In this document: positions 3,675 to 50,320 of the stretch, piece after piece | Layout of the letters: each line of letters starts with the position of its first letter | Numbering within the stretch: the first letter of the stretch is position 1 | DNA from: Syntrophales bacterium | GTDB taxonomy: Bacteria; Desulfobacterota; Syntrophia; Syntrophales; UBA8958 | Length of the DNA stretch: 64,000 bases | Reading direction: 5' to 3' | NCBI GenBank assembly: GCA_026417625.1 | Contig: JAOACW010000001.1 | Location: 124,001 to 188,000 of the forward strand | Notes under the pieces: model-generated | Seen by the model: only the letters and a program-made list of their open reading frames with translations | The model's database searches: none | What the model was told of the DNA's origin: nothing | Made by a program: the position numbers and the translations under genes

Positions 3675-5609
3675 TTAGATCGACCTCCCTATCTCGAAAC
3701 CCTCGAGTATGGCATCTTTGATCATGCGTGCCTGGACACAATCTCCCACAAAGTAAACTTCTGGGGTTTTACCTAAAAAAATTCTTGTTTTTTCTTGATC
3801 AGCTTTGAAACCCACAGCTATGATCACATAGTCACCTTCCACAGTTTCCACCTTGCCGTTATACTCAACCTGAACACCCTCCTTCGTTATCCCTACAACC
3901 TTAACACCTGTTTTCATTCTTATCCCTTCACTTTTTAAACGGGCAAGGAAAAACGGCCGATATGTAGGCGATACATTATCAGCCATACGGTCAAGCATCT
4001 CTAAAATTGTGACCGAAGATATCCCTTCCCCCCTGAGCAAAACGTGCTCCGCTGTTTCACAACCCACCATGCCACCCCCGATTACAATCACGTTTCCTCT
4101 TACTCTTCTTACGTCCTGCAGAACATCCTCTGCTGTGACCACATGCGGCAGATCCACACCGGGTATTTCGGGAATTGTGGTCTCGGCCCCGGTGGCCACA
4201 ATGACTACATCTGGTTTTTCCTCTTCAATTAGAGCCTCATCAACTCTCGTGTTCAATCTCACATCCACTTCAGCTCTTTTCAACCGTTCTGAAAAACTGT
4301 TAATCAAATCTGTTATCTCTTCTTTATAAGGAGGAATGGCTGCCAATGACAAACGCCCTCCTAACCTCCCGTGTTCCTCGAACAGAGAAACTTTGTGGCC
4401 TCTAACTGCCGCGATAATAGCCGCCTCCATACCGGCGGGTCCACCTCCTATTACATAAACTTTTTTCTTTACGTCTGGTACCTTCAGGAGGTCAGTGCCC
4501 TCCCGTCCTGCTTCTGGGTTTACAGCACAGTAAGTTGTCGCAGGTTCTCCCCACTTCCTGTAGCAGGCCATAACCTCCGTAAGACAGTGAGAACATGCGA
4601 GACAAGGGATAATCTCTTTCCATCTGCCCTCCCGAGCCTTGTTGGGAAGAAACGGATCCGCCATGAGAGCCCTCCCCATTCCCACCAGATCCGCTTTTCC
4701 ATCCGCAAGAATCTCTTCTGCAACAAAGGGACTGTTTATGCGATTTGCCGCAATAACAGGCACCGACACAGTTGCCTTAATCTGAGCAGCAAGATGTGCA
4801 AATGCCCCCCTAGGCAGCGATGGGGCAACCGTAGGGACTGTGGACTCATGCCAACCGGTGTAAACATTAATAATATCAATACCTGCTTCTTCCAGAATCT
4901 TCGCCACAATCTTCGAATCTTCAATTGTATGTCCCCCCGGCATCTGCTCTTCCACATTGAGTCGGCAACTATAAATAAAATCCTCACCTGCCTCCTTCTT
5001 CATGGCATCAATTACTTCCAGAATAATCCGCATACGATTCTCGAGACTACCACCATACCGATCATTCCGCTTGTTGCTTATGGGCGAAAGAAATCTATTC
5101 AGCAGATAACCGCCACCAACGAGGATCTCCACGGCATCAAAACCCCCTTCCCTAGCCCGGCGGGCCGCCTTTCCGCATTCTTTGACGATATACGTAATCT
5201 CGTCCTCCGTTAATTCTCTTGGCATTACCCTAAGCAACTGATTAACAACCGCCGATGGTGCAACAACTTCAGGTTTGCCCTCTTTAAAGACCACATGATA
5301 TGAAATTATCAGTTGGGCTGCAGTCCTTGCTCCATGCTTATGAATCTCACCTGTCAATCTCCTAATCCCCGGCAAAAAACGATCATCGTAAAGGCCGGGT
5401 TCCACAGGGGAACCGGCTTTTACAGGCGAAAAAGGTATAATAATGAGGCCTGTTCCCCCCTTGGCACGCTCAGCAAAGAAATTTATGAATCGATCCCCCA
5501 CCTCCTCATCCTTCTCCGTATATCCCGTTGTCATCGGTAACATAACTATACGGTTTCGGATCTCCAAACCCTTTATCCTAACCGGTGTGAACAATCTCTC
5601 AAATTCCAC
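3675..5609 (-). CDS. NADH:flavin oxidoreductase, FadH/enoate-reductase type (FMN, 4Fe-4S, FAD)
   Basis: A 644-residue three-part flavoenzyme: an N-terminal old-yellow-enzyme TIM barrel (residues 1-325), a cysteine cluster for a 4Fe-4S centre (Cys336, 339, 342 and later Cys349/361), then FAD and NAD(P) Rossmann domains (GGGPAGMEA near 390, IGGGMVGCE near 510). The family reduces activated C=C bonds such as 2-enoates or 2,4-dienoyl-CoA. The His-x-x-His substrate motif of typical old yellow enzymes is replaced by VGGGYLLNRFLSP, as also happens in FadH-type enzymes, so an acyl-CoA substrate is plausible. Start is a GTG with a strong GGGAGGGG upstream. Likely monocistronic. Confidence 0.9.
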   Translation of the reverse strand: MEFERLFTPVRIKGLEIRNRIVMLPMTTGYTEKDEEVGDRFINFFAERAKGGTGLIIIPFSPVKAGSPVEPGLYDDRFLPGIRRLTGEIHKHGARTAAQLIISYHVVFKEGKPEVVAPSAVVNQLLRVMPRELTEDEITYIVKECGKAARRAREGGFDAVEILVGGGYLLNRFLSPISNKRNDRYGGSLENRMRIILEVIDAMKKEAGEDFIYSCRLNVEEQMPGGHTIEDSKIVAKILEEAGIDIINVYTGWHESTVPTVAPSLPRGAFAHLAAQIKATVSVPVIAANRINSPFVAEEILADGKADLVGMGRALMADPFLPNKAREGRWKEIIPCLACSHCLTEVMACYRKWGEPATTYCAVNPEAGREGTDLLKVPDVKKKVYVIGGGPAGMEAAIIAAVRGHKVSLFEEHGRLGGRLSLAAIPPYKEEITDLINSFSERLKRAEVDVRLNTRVDEALIEEEKPDVVIVATGAETTIPEIPGVDLPHVVTAEDVLQDVRRVRGNVIVIGGGMVGCETAEHVLLRGEGISSVTILEMLDRMADNVSPTYRPFFLARLKSEGIRMKTGVKVVGITKEGVQVEYNGKVETVEGDYVIIAVGFKADQEKTRIFLGKTPEVYFVGDCVQARMIKDAILEGFEIGRSI

Positions 5610-5721: not shown

Positions 5722-5750
5722 TTGACAATTGGCAATTTAGGTCGTAGATG
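5722..5750 (+). promoter_or_regulatory. Candidate promoter of the ilv operon
   Basis: A perfect TTGACA at 5722-5727, 17-base spacer and TAGATG at 5745-5750. A start near 5757 would put the Val-rich leader peptide about 25 bases into the transcript, the spacing expected for ribosome-mediated attenuation. Confidence 0.5.
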
Positions 5751-5780
5751 TTTTCTAATTATAGAAAAGGGAATTTACCG

Positions 5781-5852
5781 ATGGCAATGGGAACACCGAG
5801 TTGCGGGATAGTAAACGTAGTAGTAGTACGGAGGGGCACCGCTGCTCGGTGA
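5781..5852 (+). CDS. Val-rich ilv operon leader peptide (23 aa)
   Basis: An ATG with AAAAGGG nine bases upstream opens a 23-codon frame ending in TGA at 5850-5852. The peptide is MAMGTPSCGIVNVVVVRRG followed by TAAR: an Ile codon, then five Val codons among six (5811-5828), four of them consecutive GTA. This is the layout of branched-chain leader peptides such as E. coli IvbL and IlvL. It lies between a promoter and an intrinsic terminator in front of ilvB. Its expected role is to sense charged tRNA-Val by ribosome stalling, not to make a functional protein. Confidence 0.82.
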   Translation: MAMGTPSCGIVNVVVVRRGTAAR

Positions 5853-5904
5853 AAAATATCGAGTAAATACCGAGCCGCGGGCCCCAAAACCCGCGGCTTT
5901 TTTG
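5794..5904 (+). promoter_or_regulatory. Attenuator hairpin set upstream of ilvB
   Basis: Four segments can pair in alternative ways. Segment 1 CACCGAG (5794-5800) complements segment 2 CTCGGTG (5845-5851); segment 2 GCTCGGT (5844-5850) also complements segment 3 ACCGAGC (5869-5875); segment 3 AGCCGCGGG (5873-5881) complements segment 4 CCCGCGGCT (5890-5898). A ribosome stalled on the Val codons would cover segment 1 and free segment 2 to open the terminator; one that reaches the stop codon covers segment 2 and lets 3:4 form. A local CACCG/CGGTG hairpin (5837-5851) could act as pause structure. Confidence 0.75.
5873..5904 (+). terminator. Intrinsic terminator of the ilv attenuator
   Basis: Nine-base-pair GC-rich stem AGCCGCGGG / CCCGCGGCT with an eight-base loop, followed by a run of six T. 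It lies after the leader peptide and before ilvB, so it terminates within the leader unless disrupted. Confidence 0.85.
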
Positions 5905-5915
5905 TTTGTTAAACA

Positions 5916-5948
5916 AAAAGCCGCTCAGTAACAGCGGCTTTTGTGTTT
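5916..5948 (+). terminator. Second terminator-like hairpin before ilvB
   Basis: Ten-base-pair stem AAAAGCCGCT (5916-5925) / AGCGGCTTTT (5933-5942) with a seven-base loop and a T-rich tail. Its 5' arm can alternatively pair with the 3' arm and U-tract of the first terminator (GCGGCTTTTTTGTTT, 5893-5907, with AAACAAAAAGCCGC, 5911-5924), so the two terminators are linked through a third, mutually exclusive hairpin. Confidence 0.6.
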
Positions 5949-5975
5949 TGAAAATCCAAAAGGGAGGTGTCAAAA

Positions 5976-7673
5976 TTGCAACTTAAAGGAGCTGAGATTC
6001 TCATTAAAGTTTTAGAGGAAGAAGGTGTGAAAACGATATTCGGCTACCCTGGTGGTGTTCTTCTTGACATATACGATGAACTCTACAGGAGCAAAATTAG
6101 ACACATTCTAGTGCGTCATGAGCAGGGTGCGGTGCATGCCGCCGATGGTTATGCCAGAGCTTCCGGGGAAGTGGGTGTCGTCCTGGTTACGTCGGGACCT
6201 GGAGCAGCGAATACAGTAACAGGTATTGCTACTGCCTACATGGATTCCATACCCATAGTTGTTCTAACAGGTCAGGTTCCGACCCATCTTATAGGTACGG
6301 ATGCATTTCAGGAAGTGGACATCATCGGTATTACCCGACCATGCACAAAACATAACTTCCAGGTCCGCCGGGTGGAAGAATTGGCTAAGACCCTTCATGA
6401 AGCATTTCACATTGCCCGCTCTGGGCGACCAGGACCAGTACTCGTGGACCTACCCAAAGACGTTATTGCATCCACAACAGAATATTTTCCCCAGCAAAGA
6501 TTAAAAGATGAAAAAGTGGAGTTTAGGCCCCCGTCTAAGAAGGCCTTTTATGTTTTGGACCTTTTAAATGAAGCCAAAAAACCCCTGATACTATCAGGTG
6601 GTGGTGTGATACTCGGTAGAGCCTCGGAGGAGTTAAGAAAACTCGCCTGGCGAACGAAAATACCTGTAACGTCTACCCTTATGGGGCTGGGAGCTTTTCC
6701 AGGAACCGATCCTCTTTGGCTTGGCATGCCCGGCATGCATGGGACCTACTATGCCAATATGGCAATCAGCCACTGTGATCTGTTAATCGCCATTGGTGTG
6801 CGTTTTGACGATCGTGTAACAGGGAAAATTGACAACTTTGCTTCACACGCAAAAATCGTACACGTAGACATTGATCCCTCATCGATAAACAAAAACGTTA
6901 TGGTGGATGTTCCCATTGTGAGTGACTGCAGAAGTGCTCTCATGACGTTCAACGACCTTCTGGAAAAGCAGAATTTCAACGTCACCTATGAACAGAGAAA
7001 GGAATGGCTTGAACTCATAGAAGAGTGGAAGCGAGAATACCCCCTTACCTATGCACACAGTGAATCGGAAATTAAACCCCAGTACGTTATAGAAACACTT
7101 TACAAATTGACGAAAGGAAAGGCAATCATAACCACCGAAGTGGGTCAGAATCAAATGTGGGCAGCTCAATTTTATAAATTTGACGAACCCAACAGATTTC
7201 TCTCCTCAGGAGGGCTGGGAACGATGGGTTACGGTTTTCCAGCTGCAATTGGCGCCAAAATCGCGCGTCCTGATATGCTCGTCATAGACATAGCTGGAGA
7301 TGGAAGTATCCAGATGAACATCCAGGAGATGGCTACCGCTGTTCAGGATAACATCCCTGTGAAAATAGTTCTCATAAACAACGGGTATCTTGGGATGGTA
7401 CGCCAGTGGCAACAGCTTTTTTACGGAAAACGCTACTCTTACTCCGATATAGCGTGTCAACCCGATTTTCTTAAATTAGCCGAAGCGTATGGGTGGCTAG
7501 GTCTGAAAGCCACAAAACCTGAAGAAGTAGAACCCGTCCTCAGGAAGGGCTTAGAATACTCGGGTCCGGCAATAATGGATTTCCATGTGTCACGAGAAGA
7601 GTGCGTTTACCCCATGGTTAGACCAGGCGGTCCACTCCACGAAATGACCCTAGGAAGAGAAATGGTAAATTGA
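5976..7673 (+). CDS. ilvB: Acetolactate synthase, large catalytic subunit
   Basis: ThDP- and FAD-dependent enzyme condensing two pyruvates (or pyruvate and 2-oxobutyrate), the first common step of Val, Leu and Ile synthesis. The 565-residue protein has the ThDP-activating Glu in VRHEQGAVHAADGYARASG near residue 50, the central FAD-binding domain, and the C-terminal ThDP motif GDGSIQMN...NN. The start is taken as TTG at 5976: the GGGAGG at 5962-5967 is eight bases upstream, whereas the in-frame GTG at 5967 overlaps that ribosome site and cannot use it. A rare TTG start fits tight control by the leader. First gene of ilvBNCD. Confidence 0.95.
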   Translation: MQLKGAEILIKVLEEEGVKTIFGYPGGVLLDIYDELYRSKIRHILVRHEQGAVHAADGYARASGEVGVVLVTSGPGAANTVTGIATAYMDSIPIVVLTGQVPTHLIGTDAFQEVDIIGITRPCTKHNFQVRRVEELAKTLHEAFHIARSGRPGPVLVDLPKDVIASTTEYFPQQRLKDEKVEFRPPSKKAFYVLDLLNEAKKPLILSGGGVILGRASEELRKLAWRTKIPVTSTLMGLGAFPGTDPLWLGMPGMHGTYYANMAISHCDLLIAIGVRFDDRVTGKIDNFASHAKIVHVDIDPSSINKNVMVDVPIVSDCRSALMTFNDLLEKQNFNVTYEQRKEWLELIEEWKREYPLTYAHSESEIKPQYVIETLYKLTKGKAIITTEVGQNQMWAAQFYKFDEPNRFLSSGGLGTMGYGFPAAIGAKIARPDMLVIDIAGDGSIQMNIQEMATAVQDNIPVKIVLINNGYLGMVRQWQQLFYGKRYSYSDIACQPDFLKLAEAYGWLGLKATKPEEVEPVLRKGLEYSGPAIMDFHVSREECVYPMVRPGGPLHEMTLGREMVN

Positions 7674-7706: not shown

Positions 7707-8192
7707 ATGGAAAAAAAACCACGCACACTGGCCTTGACCGTGAATAACAAACCTGACGTGCTCGCTCGCGTTGCAGGTGTTCTGGGAGGAAGAGGCTACA
7801 ACATTGAAACCCTGTGTGTGGACGCCACAATGGATCCCGCGTACTCAAAGATAATTCTAACCACGATACAGGACAAAAACACTATAACGAAGATTGAGAA
7901 ACAGCTCATGAAATTGATCGATGTGCACAAGGTTGCAGATATCACTGAAATAGCACACGTTACCAGAGAAATGATGCTCGTCCGCATGAAGTTAACGGAA
8001 TCTAACAAAGGAGATCTCGCTCTTATTGTCAACGCCTATCAGGGACGGGTAGTTACAATGAACGGTGATTATTGTGTGATTGAAATAACTGGGGACAAAG
8101 AACAGATCGAAAATGCTCTTGAAAGCTTAAAGCCCCTAGGAATTGATGATATGGCCAGAACTGGAATAGTTGCATTAGAAAGACAACCCTAA
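7707..8192 (+). CDS. ilvN: Acetolactate synthase, small regulatory subunit
   Basis: A 161-residue ACT-domain protein that activates IlvB and confers valine feedback inhibition. The N-terminal ACT segment (LTVNNKPDVLARVAGVLGGRGYNIETL) and the C-terminal regulatory domain are complete, matching the long IlvH type. Strong GGGGAGG ribosome site; 33 bases after ilvB. Confidence 0.95.
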   Translation: MEKKPRTLALTVNNKPDVLARVAGVLGGRGYNIETLCVDATMDPAYSKIILTTIQDKNTITKIEKQLMKLIDVHKVADITEIAHVTREMMLVRMKLTESNKGDLALIVNAYQGRVVTMNGDYCVIEITGDKEQIENALESLKPLGIDDMARTGIVALERQP

Positions 8193-8213: not shown

Positions 8214-9263
8214 ATGGCAAAACTAATCATCGGTGATGTGGTGGAAGAGGTTATAACATCCGAAGAATTTACTCTTGACATGGCCAGGGAAGTTCTAAAA
8301 GATGAAGTGGTTGCTGTTTTGGGTTATGGGGTACAGGGTAGAGGCCAAGCTCTGAATATGCGGGACAATGGCATAAACGTTATTGTTGGTTCCGCCGGTT
8401 ATAACTGGAACAAGGCAAAGGAGGAAGGTTTCGAACCTGGAAAAACCCTTTTCCCCATGATGGAAGCAGCTGCAAAGGGTACCATTATCCAATTTCTGGT
8501 TCCCGATGCTCAACAGAAGGCCATGTGGCCCGAGTTAAAACCCCACCTCACAAAGGGCAAAGCCCTCTATTTCTCCCATGGTTTTTCCATAGTATACAAG
8601 GATCAGACCGGTGTCATTCCTCCCCCCGATATCGACGTTATAATGGTTGCTCCCAAAGGCGCGGGGAGAACCGTAAGGGACAATTTTTTGGCAGGCAGTG
8701 GCATCAATTCCAGTTTTGCCATCTACCAGGATGCCACGGGAAGAGCTAGGGAGAGAACCCTAGCGATCGGGGTTGCTATTGGTTCCGGTTATCTATTCCC
8801 CACAACCTTTGAAATGGAAGTTTACAGTGATCTGACTGGTGAAAGAGGGGTTCTGATGGGTTGCTTGGCGGGCATCCTAGAAGCTCAGTACAACGAACTT
8901 CGAAAGAGAGGTCACAGCCCCAGCGAAGCATTTAATGAAACAGTAGAGGAACTAACCCAGAGCTTGATCCCCCTGGTCGCAGAAAATGGAATGGACTGGA
9001 TGTATGCAAACTGCAGCACCACTGCACAGAGAGGAGCCCTGGATTGGAAGAACCGTTTTCGTGATGCCGTAGCTCCTCTATTCGAGGAACTATACGACAG
9101 AGTGAAATCGGGAAAGGAGACAGAGATAGTTCTCAGCGCATGTGCAGCACCCAATTACCGTGATATGCTTCAAAAAGAACTTGAGGAAATGAGAAGCCAT
9201 GAAATGTGGCAGGCAGGAGCTGTTCTTCGAAGCTTGCGGCCTGAAAGAAGAAGAAAAAAATAA
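8214..9263 (+). CDS. ilvC: Ketol-acid reductoisomerase
   Basis: Converts acetolactate or acetohydroxybutyrate to the dihydroxy acid with NAD(P)H and Mg2+. Length (349 residues) is that of class I KARI. The dinucleotide motif GYGVQGRGQA lies near residue 38, followed by the cofactor-selecting loop VGSAGYNWNKA, in which the usual run of basic and hydroxyl residues that clamps the NADPH phosphate is not obvious. The metal-binding Glu/Asp region (DLTGERGVLMG, then E in the C-terminal helical knot) is present. An extra N-terminal strand (IIGDVVEEVI) precedes the Rossmann fold. Confidence 0.95.
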   Translation: MAKLIIGDVVEEVITSEEFTLDMAREVLKDEVVAVLGYGVQGRGQALNMRDNGINVIVGSAGYNWNKAKEEGFEPGKTLFPMMEAAAKGTIIQFLVPDAQQKAMWPELKPHLTKGKALYFSHGFSIVYKDQTGVIPPPDIDVIMVAPKGAGRTVRDNFLAGSGINSSFAIYQDATGRARERTLAIGVAIGSGYLFPTTFEMEVYSDLTGERGVLMGCLAGILEAQYNELRKRGHSPSEAFNETVEELTQSLIPLVAENGMDWMYANCSTTAQRGALDWKNRFRDAVAPLFEELYDRVKSGKETEIVLSACAAPNYRDMLQKELEEMRSHEMWQAGAVLRSLRPERRRKK

Positions 9264-9278: not shown

Positions 9279-10940
9279 ATGCGCAGTGATCTGATGAAAA
9301 AAGGGTTAGAAAGGGCCCCCCACAGAGCGCTTTTCAAAGCTATGGGTTACACAGATGAGGAAATCCATCGCCCTATGGTTGGTGTTATCAATTCTTTCAA
9401 CGAAATCATTCCCGGGCACATACATCTACGAACGATAACTGAAGACGTAAAAGCGGGCGTAAGACTCGCCGGGGGCACTCCTGTGGAGTTTCCTGTAATT
9501 GGGATATGCGATGGTATTGCCATGGGGCATGAAGGCATGAAGTATTCCCTTGCGAGTAGGGAACTTATTGCTGACTCCATTGAATCGATGGTAATGGCCC
9601 ATCCATTTGACGCCTTGGTGATGGTAACCAACTGCGACAAGATCGTACCTGGAATGCTCATGGCAGCCCTAAGAGTGAACATCCCCACGATCGTCATAAG
9701 TGGGGGACCTATGTTGGCTGGTCACTACCAGGGAAGAACAATTGACCTTATAAGTGTCTTTGAAGGAATCGGGCAAGTAAAGGCTAGAAAAATCTCTCAG
9801 AAGGAACTTTTGGAGATTGAAAACAGAGCCTGTCCAGGATGTGGTTCCTGCTCCGGTATGTACACGGCTAATTCTATGAATTGCATGACGGAGGCCCTGG
9901 GACTGGGACTACCGGGAAACGGCACCATCCCCGCAATCAGTGCCCAGAGGAGACGTTTAGCCAAAGATGCGGGTATGAGAATCATGTACCTTCTGAAAAA
10001 CAACATCAAACCTCGTGACATAGCCACCCTAGAAGCCTTCAAAAATGCCATTGCAGTGGATATGGCCCTTGGGTGTTCAACAAATACGGTGCTTCACCTT
10101 ACAGCCATTGCCTATGAGGCGGGCATAAACCTAGATCTCGCTCTTTTTAACGAGATAAGTGCCAAAACACCAAACCTTTGCAAACTAAGTCCCGCTGGGT
10201 CCCATCATCTTGAAGATCTCGATGCCGCTGGAGGAGTTCCAGCGGTCATGAAAAGAATCTCCTCCCTAGGGCTCATAGATGAAACCTTAATCACAGTCAC
10301 AGGAAAGACAGTAGGTGAAAACATAAAAAATGCCCTCGTTCTTGATGATGACGTTATAAGGCCCCTCGAAAAACCCTACCATAGCGAAGGAGGTTTAGCT
10401 ATTCTCAAAGGTAATCTGGCACCAGAAGGTGCCGTTGTGAAACAGTCGGCGGTTGACAAAAGTATGCTTGTGAGGGAAGGTCCCGCTCGTGTCTTTAATT
10501 CAGAGGAAGAAGCCATCCAAGCCATCCTCGGCGGAAAAATAAAACCTGGCGATGTGGTGGTCATTCGCTATGAGGGTCCAAAGGGTGGGCCTGGTATGAG
10601 AGAAATGCTGGCCCCCACATCTGCCATTGCTGGTATGGGACTAGACACTACCGTTGCCCTCCTAACGGACGGGAGATTCAGCGGTGGAACGAGAGGGGCC
10701 GCCATAGGACACATTTCACCGGAAGCGGCTGAAGGTGGACCCATTGCTTTAGTGAATGAGGGTGACATCATCGCCATCGATATTCCCGGCAAAAAAATCA
10801 CATTGAAAGTATCAACTGAAGAATTGAGAAAACGAAAGAAGACTTTCAAGCCTAAAGAGCCGGCGATAAAAACTGGATACCTTGCCCGTTACTCAAAACT
10901 CGTTACCTCAGCGAGCACAGGGGCAATACTTAAATACTGA
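9279..10940 (+). CDS. ilvD: Dihydroxy-acid dehydratase
   Basis: A 553-residue IlvD/Edd-family Fe-S enzyme that dehydrates 2,3-dihydroxy acids to 2-oxo acids, the third shared step of Val and Ile synthesis. The cluster-binding Cys residues are visible in TNCDK and [18 protein letters not shown], and the C-terminal [15 protein letters not shown] motif is intact. Sixteen bases after ilvC with an AAGGAG site. Confidence 0.95.
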
Positions 10941-50180: not shown

Positions 50181-50230
50181 TACAAAAATCTTGATTTTAC
50201 AGTTACGCATGTTTACAGTATAAAGTTAAT

Positions 50231-50302
50231 ATAGGGGTGCTGAAAAGGCTGAAAATACACCCTTGGAACCTGATCTGGATAATTCCAGCGTAGGGAACAT
50301 CT
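50231..50302 (+). promoter_or_regulatory. TPP riboswitch (THI element)
   Basis: Contains the conserved aptamer segments: AGGGGTGC, then GGCTGAAAATACACCC, GGAACCTGATCTGGATAATT and CCAGCGTAGGGAA. It binds thiamine pyrophosphate and controls thiC. An intrinsic terminator follows, so control is likely by transcription termination. The stretch from 50090 to 50230 otherwise holds the promoter and no other element I can see. Confidence 0.95.
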
Positions 50303-50320
50303 TAAATCTGGGCTAGTCTA

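Follow-up and report, generated by a model that had tools for sequence, protein, structure and literature searches.

A predicted valine-codon attenuator with a conserved, probably coupled second terminator upstream of ilvBNCD in Syntrophales

Introduction

The ilvGMEDA and ilvBN (ivbL) operons of Escherichia coli are preceded by leaders that encode a peptide rich in Val, Ile and Leu, in which 1:2, 2:3 and 3:4 compete and a U-run completes the terminator; some other ilv operons are controlled by T-boxes. A survey of the proteobacteria was reportedly carried out by Vitreschak et al. in 2004. The element described here, which precedes the ilvBNCD genes of a Syntrophales bacterium, resembles the E. 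coli leaders in its leader peptide rich in branched-chain amino acids (BCAA), its competing pairings and its U-run terminator, a likeness that we claim for the architecture only; whereas the textbook E. coli-type model has no second terminator complementary to the first, the Syntrophales element has one.

The earlier note on this DNA had regarded such attenuators as less often described outside the gamma-proteobacteria, which is only partly fair, since BCAA-rich ilvB leaders have been reported for Corynebacterium, Mycobacterium and Streptomyces, and the ilvB-OMG and Leptospira ilvB motifs for other lineages (PMC1262725; PMC10272879). In the motifs ilvB-II (Corynebacterium), ilvB-OMG and Leptospira ilvB, too, ilvB is preceded by alternative hairpins overlapped by an upstream ORF with many BCAA codons, and ilvB-II shares the terminator hairpin; compared by description, they differ in belonging to other lineages and in that no tandem coupled terminator is described for them in the accessible part of the source (PMC10272879). 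The candidate ilvB leaders of Actinobacteria also contain short ORFs with runs of Ile, Val and Leu overlapping a terminator; their mode of regulation is uncertain, since a codon substitution in S. coelicolor was without effect (PMC1262725).

More than one attenuation step per leader is known from the Salmonella mgtCBR leader, in which, however, two ORFs sense two signals independently, whereas the Syntrophales element has one ORF and two intrinsic terminators that share complementary arms (PMC3641672). The rimP-leader motif also combines two tandem terminators with an inverse motif and a potential antiterminator; it differs in belonging to rimP of Gammaproteobacteria, and the accessible part of its description mentions no amino acid leader peptide (PMC2965389).

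In the open-access literature, which was the scope of our search, we found neither an amino acid attenuator of Desulfobacterota nor two terminators wired by shared arms. With this scope, priority is not certain. The class of mechanism is known; what appears to be new is the order-wide family and, probably, the coupled second terminator.

Sequence data and analysis

The window, i.e. the whole stretch of DNA analysed, comprises 64,000 nucleotides of a source genome of 1.79 Mb in 32 contigs; the host, correctly guessed in the earlier note as a probable member of the Desulfobacterota, belongs to the order Syntrophales. Relatives were gathered by an IlvB search, and their ilvB upstream regions were compared. 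A covariance model (R1) was built on segments 2-4 of the leader only, and covariation was evaluated in an alignment (A3) of 113 sequences. A class-level search added nothing, the class sample being identical to the order sample.

Leader peptide gene and the ilvBNCD operon

The leader peptide ORF (5781..5852, + strand) comprises 23 codons (MAMGTPSCGIVNVVVVRRGTAAR, followed by the stop codon), of which five encode Val (codons 11 and 13-16) and one Ile. The control codons, I V N V V V V, are located at 5808-5828, and the stop codon occupies 5850-5852, where segment 2 ends. A ribosome site of modest quality (AAAAGGGA) precedes ATG 5781 by about 10 nt. The ORF had been proposed from the sequence with this ribosome site and these Val and Ile codons, and all of them are present.

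The leader lies directly upstream of four genes in the order ilvB-ilvN-ilvC-ilvD, all on the + strand: ilvB for the acetohydroxyacid synthase large subunit (5976..7673; TIGR00118), ilvN (7707-8192; TIGR00119), ilvC (8214-9263; TIGR00465), and ilvD (9279-10940; TIGR00110). The start codon of ilvB is probably TTG 5976, which follows AAAAGGGAGG, rather than GTG 5967 of the mechanically called ORF (window 5967-5978).

Segments 1 to 4 and the first terminator

The four segments of a classical attenuator were located on the + strand. Segment 1 (5794..5806; CACCGAGTTGCGG) pairs with segment 2 as a protector or pause hairpin; segment 2 (5833..5851; GGGGCACCGCTGCTCGGTG) pairs with either segment 1 or segment 3; segment 3 (5869..5885; ACCGAGCCGCGGGCCCC) forms the antiterminator with segment 2 and the terminator with segment 4; and segment 4 (5890..5903; CCCGCGGC plus six T) provides the 3' arm and U-run of the first terminator (T1), and is also complementary to segment 5 (see below). 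T1, i.e. 3:4 with the six T (5872..5903), was predicted by a terminator scan. The 1:2, 2:3 and 3:4 pairings and the GC-rich terminator with its six T were thus all found as the earlier note had described them.

The predicted fold of the leader is more stable than that of dinucleotide shuffles (z = -3.55). In simulated folds of the window leader, 1:2 and 3:4 formed when no ribosome was placed, 2:3 formed and the terminator was absent when segment 1 was masked, and 3:4 formed with a ribosome at the stop codon. In the relatives, all 117 folds gave T1 once the ribosome was placed at the stop, and masking of segment 1 replaced T1 in 82 of 117, the equilibrium fold retaining T1 in the other 35.

Covariation of 2:3, 3:4, 4:5 and 5:6 exceeds that of shuffles and of slid controls. 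For 2:3, 11 of 20 pairs are changed on both sides, with a score of 0.184 compared with 0.135 in shuffled and at most 0.112 in slid alignments (113 sequences); for 3:4, 95.8% of the cells are paired and three pairs are changed on both sides. The 1:2 duplex of the window (-23.6 kcal/mol) is more stable than in all 50 codon shuffles; order-wide, its support is only moderate, since the median is -19.7 versus -15.6 for codon shuffles (median p 0.09).

Conservation within the order

The same architecture was found in the ilvB upstream regions of many relatives, where the earlier note had suggested looking for it; the Val codons and the stem pairing are conserved there, and 2:3 and 3:4 covary. The R1 model matches 138 of 155 Syntrophales genomes, typically with one strong match per genome, and a leader ORF with a Val run is in register in 117 of the 118 order relatives examined; its peptide usually ends in GTAAR or GSAAL, and its stop codon lies about 24 nt inside the R1 model. 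A gene for an acetohydroxyacid synthase large subunit directly follows the element in 114 of 117 relatives; among the three exceptions is G149, in which it precedes an apparent ilvC.

When 84,980 named genomes were scanned with a strict pattern, 53 matches resulted. Of these, 51 came from Syntrophaceae, Smithella, Syntrophus or other related records of Deltaproteobacteria type, which identifies the order as Syntrophales; those in Paenibacillus filicis and Streptomyces ardesiacus are taken as chance.

The second terminator

The earlier note had confined a four-segment attenuator to 5781-5904. Its segments 1-4 stand, and its extent does not, for the element is longer and includes a conserved second terminator (T2) beyond that interval. 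Segment 5 (5911..5925, + strand; AAACAAAAAGCCGCT) can pair with segment 4, as an anti-T2, or with segment 6 (5933-5942, + strand), which is the 3' arm and U-run of T2; T2, i.e. 5:6 (5911..5942, + strand), was predicted by the terminator scan with its core at 5916-5942. Of the 117 leaders with enough sequence, 115 contain T2, and it is missing from G006 and G022. Across the order, segment 5 (AAAGCCGC), the 5' arm of T2, is complementary to segment 6 as well as to segment 4, and its core GCCGC is practically invariant, while the inner stem of T2 varies with partial compensation.

This double complementarity can be read in two ways. Since the RNA of T2 is complementary to T1, both terminators are probably switched together, and we consider a coupling of T2 to the T1 switch to be reasonably probable from these data. 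The competing reading is a classical four-segment attenuator followed by an uncoupled back-up terminator that merely resembles T1, e.g. by duplication, and that is leaky enough when the switch is ON; we rate this as a possible, clearly less probable explanation.

The pairing data bear on both. For 4:5, 95% of the cells are paired; both sides are changed in three pairs and in 33 cells, the latter compared with 15 cells in shuffles. Column 91:109 reads U-A in 56 sequences, G-C in 24, and either U-G or G-U in 15. In 46 of 113 sequences, the segment-5 base of this column has no pair in segment 6; it thus covaries with segment 4 and not with segment 6. In a different genus, which includes genome G044, segments 4, 5 and 6 have changed together from A-U to G-C. 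The independent 4:5 events are few, because the G-C cases at column 91:109 are confined to one family and the joint change to one genus. The median energy of the 4:5 duplex is -16.0 kcal/mol, compared with -6.9 for the 38 other terminators of these genomes, a small control set; only one of the 38 reaches the weakest true 4:5 value, and only one shares the core.

An uncoupled T2 leaves unexplained the order-wide 4:5 complementarity and the column that covaries with 4 rather than 6, and the core is common to so few of the other terminators; nor does it give a reason why an inducible switch should stay separated from its gene by a permanent terminator. A free-running T2 at this position would block the ON state too, so something must relieve it. 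In favour of a back-up, T2 by itself is a complete predicted terminator, 4:5 is weakened in a few leaders (e.g. G050 and G138), and clusters of hairpins in ordinary terminators are said to outperform single hairpins (PMC8355165, which also lists RNA-seq data of Syntrophus aciditrophicus, SRR3944268). Moreover, full 5:6 with its A-U extension is slightly more stable than 4:5 (medians -16.9 versus -14.8), so that 4:5 could counteract T2 only kinetically. If the U-run, which would still be in the polymerase, is left out, 5:6 reaches -11.9, and 4:5 wins in 103 of 115 leaders; 4:5 may therefore oppose T2 kinetically.

Comparison with RNA families, and the promoter

The coupled and the uncoupled T2 both presuppose control by a translating ribosome. 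If the leader RNA were instead a riboswitch or T-box, with direct binding of a ligand or a tRNA, this would fit the strong primary-sequence conservation of segments 2-4, and ppGpp riboswitches control ilvB in some bacteria (PMC10272879). When the ilvB leader was searched with the Rfam covariance models, no T-box, ppGpp or other family matched at gathering score, and up to E = 10 only chance-level scores were obtained; the conservation is itself explained by the triple pairing and by the frame of the Val-run ORF (117/118). Direct binding is therefore rejected for want of an Rfam match, and we consider it very improbable.

A promoter was predicted at 5722..5750 (+ strand), with the -35 box TTGACA (5722-5727), a 17-nt spacer, and a weak -10 box TAGATG (5745-5750), from which the RNA would start near 5757. 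Of 114 relatives, 113 have TTGAC[A/T] within 90 nt 5' of where the leader ORF starts, as against 3 of 114 shuffled sequences. This conserved promoter-like box 5' of the ORF makes transcripts that start downstream of 5850, which the earlier note had named as speaking against an attenuator, less probable. An upstream start codon of the leader ORF, ATG 5748 (34 codons), is unlikely because it overlaps the predicted -10 box and would lie outside the RNA.

A weak promoter-like match at 5948-5976 would suit a chance ORF over an ordinary terminator, with the ilvB promoter downstream, a reading with practically no probability left and rejected by conservation in relatives: ORF, stems and upstream TTGAC[A/T] are conserved order-wide, the upstream gene is divergent, so that it needs no + strand terminator there, and chance is excluded because VVVV is unique to the leader ORF among the 2,597 nested small ORFs (10-45 codons) of the window and more than 110 other genomes share the entire architecture.

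On the - strand, a sigma-70-like promoter match (11-of-12) at 5787-5758 overlaps the leader region; it faces a divergent gene for a BaiCD/OYE-like flavoenzyme (3675-5609).

Proposed mechanism

As judged from its sequence and its conservation, the element is very probably a ribosome-mediated transcription attenuator of ilvBNCD that is controlled mainly by valyl-tRNA. The Val-codon attenuation that the earlier note had proposed is supported by the leader ORF, by the covariation of 2:3 and 3:4, by the upstream TTGAC[A/T], and by the acetohydroxyacid synthase gene downstream. With the second terminator coupled, it would operate as a six-segment switch, in which 1:2, 3:4 and 5:6 make up the OFF state, and 2:3 and 4:5 the ON state.

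Transcription would begin near 5757. When Val (and Ile) is plentiful, the ribosome would reach the stop codon at 5850 and cover segment 2, so that 3:4 forms and T1 terminates; in transcripts that escape T1, segment 4 would be occupied, and 5:6 would pair, so that T2 terminates. A shortage of charged Val-tRNA would stall the ribosome at the Val codons, with segment 1 covered; 2:3 would form, and T1 would be blocked. The free segment 4 may then capture the emerging segment 5 (4:5) before T2 can form, and RNA polymerase would continue into ilvB. In this scheme, we infer that charged tRNA is sensed, that termination takes place, and that 4:5 disarms T2.

Such an attenuator would firmly place classical amino acid attenuation in the Desulfobacterota, with a single-order RNA family of about 120 examples and no Rfam match. 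If true, the coupled terminators would cut the basal leak multiplicatively at no cost to induced expression; evolution could in this way tighten a leaky attenuator and keep its inducibility, and the design would be usable in synthetic switches.

Related leaders in the order and phylum

A crude scan of 65 ilvB upstream regions outside the order yielded about one convincing leader with terminator (G186, L233), and the ilvB attenuator is therefore mainly a Syntrophales trait. The weak R1 matches outside the order are mostly leader-peptide attenuators of other pathways; one precedes ilvB. In other Desulfobacterota, Leu runs precede leuA (L069, L070, L081) and Trp leaders (WWRW) precede trpB-like genes (L071, L072, L074, L077), the leuA and trpB-like genes being checked with NCBIfam; a leader-peptide attenuator precedes a trpE-like gene (L083), and Tyr/Phe runs precede genes of the aromatic pathway (L075, L084, L078, L080, L082), these genes being named from sequence. 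None of the Leu, Trp and Tyr/Phe leader attenuators of other Desulfobacterota had an Rfam match.

In five leaders outside the order, T2 matches its own T1, one of them with the changed core GCCACGG in both. In the phylum, tandem terminators with a 4:5 match of their own precede leuA, aromatic-pathway genes and another ilvB, in support of the coupling. On balance, we favour the view that two terminators are set in series through shared complementary arms, with one ribosome position setting both, throughout Syntrophales and in some leucine and aromatic leaders of Desulfobacterota.

A second type of leader was observed before ilvB in Syntrophales (L007-L009, L011, L020, L022, L023, L027-L030), with an Ile/Val-rich ORF (e.g. 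MNGSRIANIAIIIIIGIIIPFRTGAG), a segment ending in GTGATGGTTTG, and only one terminator (CCGTTACC..GGTAACGG); where a genome has two ilvB genes, this type precedes one and the Val type the other. In L079 (about 1501-1575, - strand), a Tyr-rich leader peptide (MDNNQQRRKYYFYYRRLGLPSL) with a terminator precedes a gene for an MBL-fold hydrolase and not an amino acid gene.

Other RNA features of the window comprise a TPP riboswitch at 50223-50313 (Rfam RF00059, 62.9 bits), and a bacterial small SRP RNA with two tRNA-Ser genes (GGA, CGA) in a row at 1-295 on the - strand.
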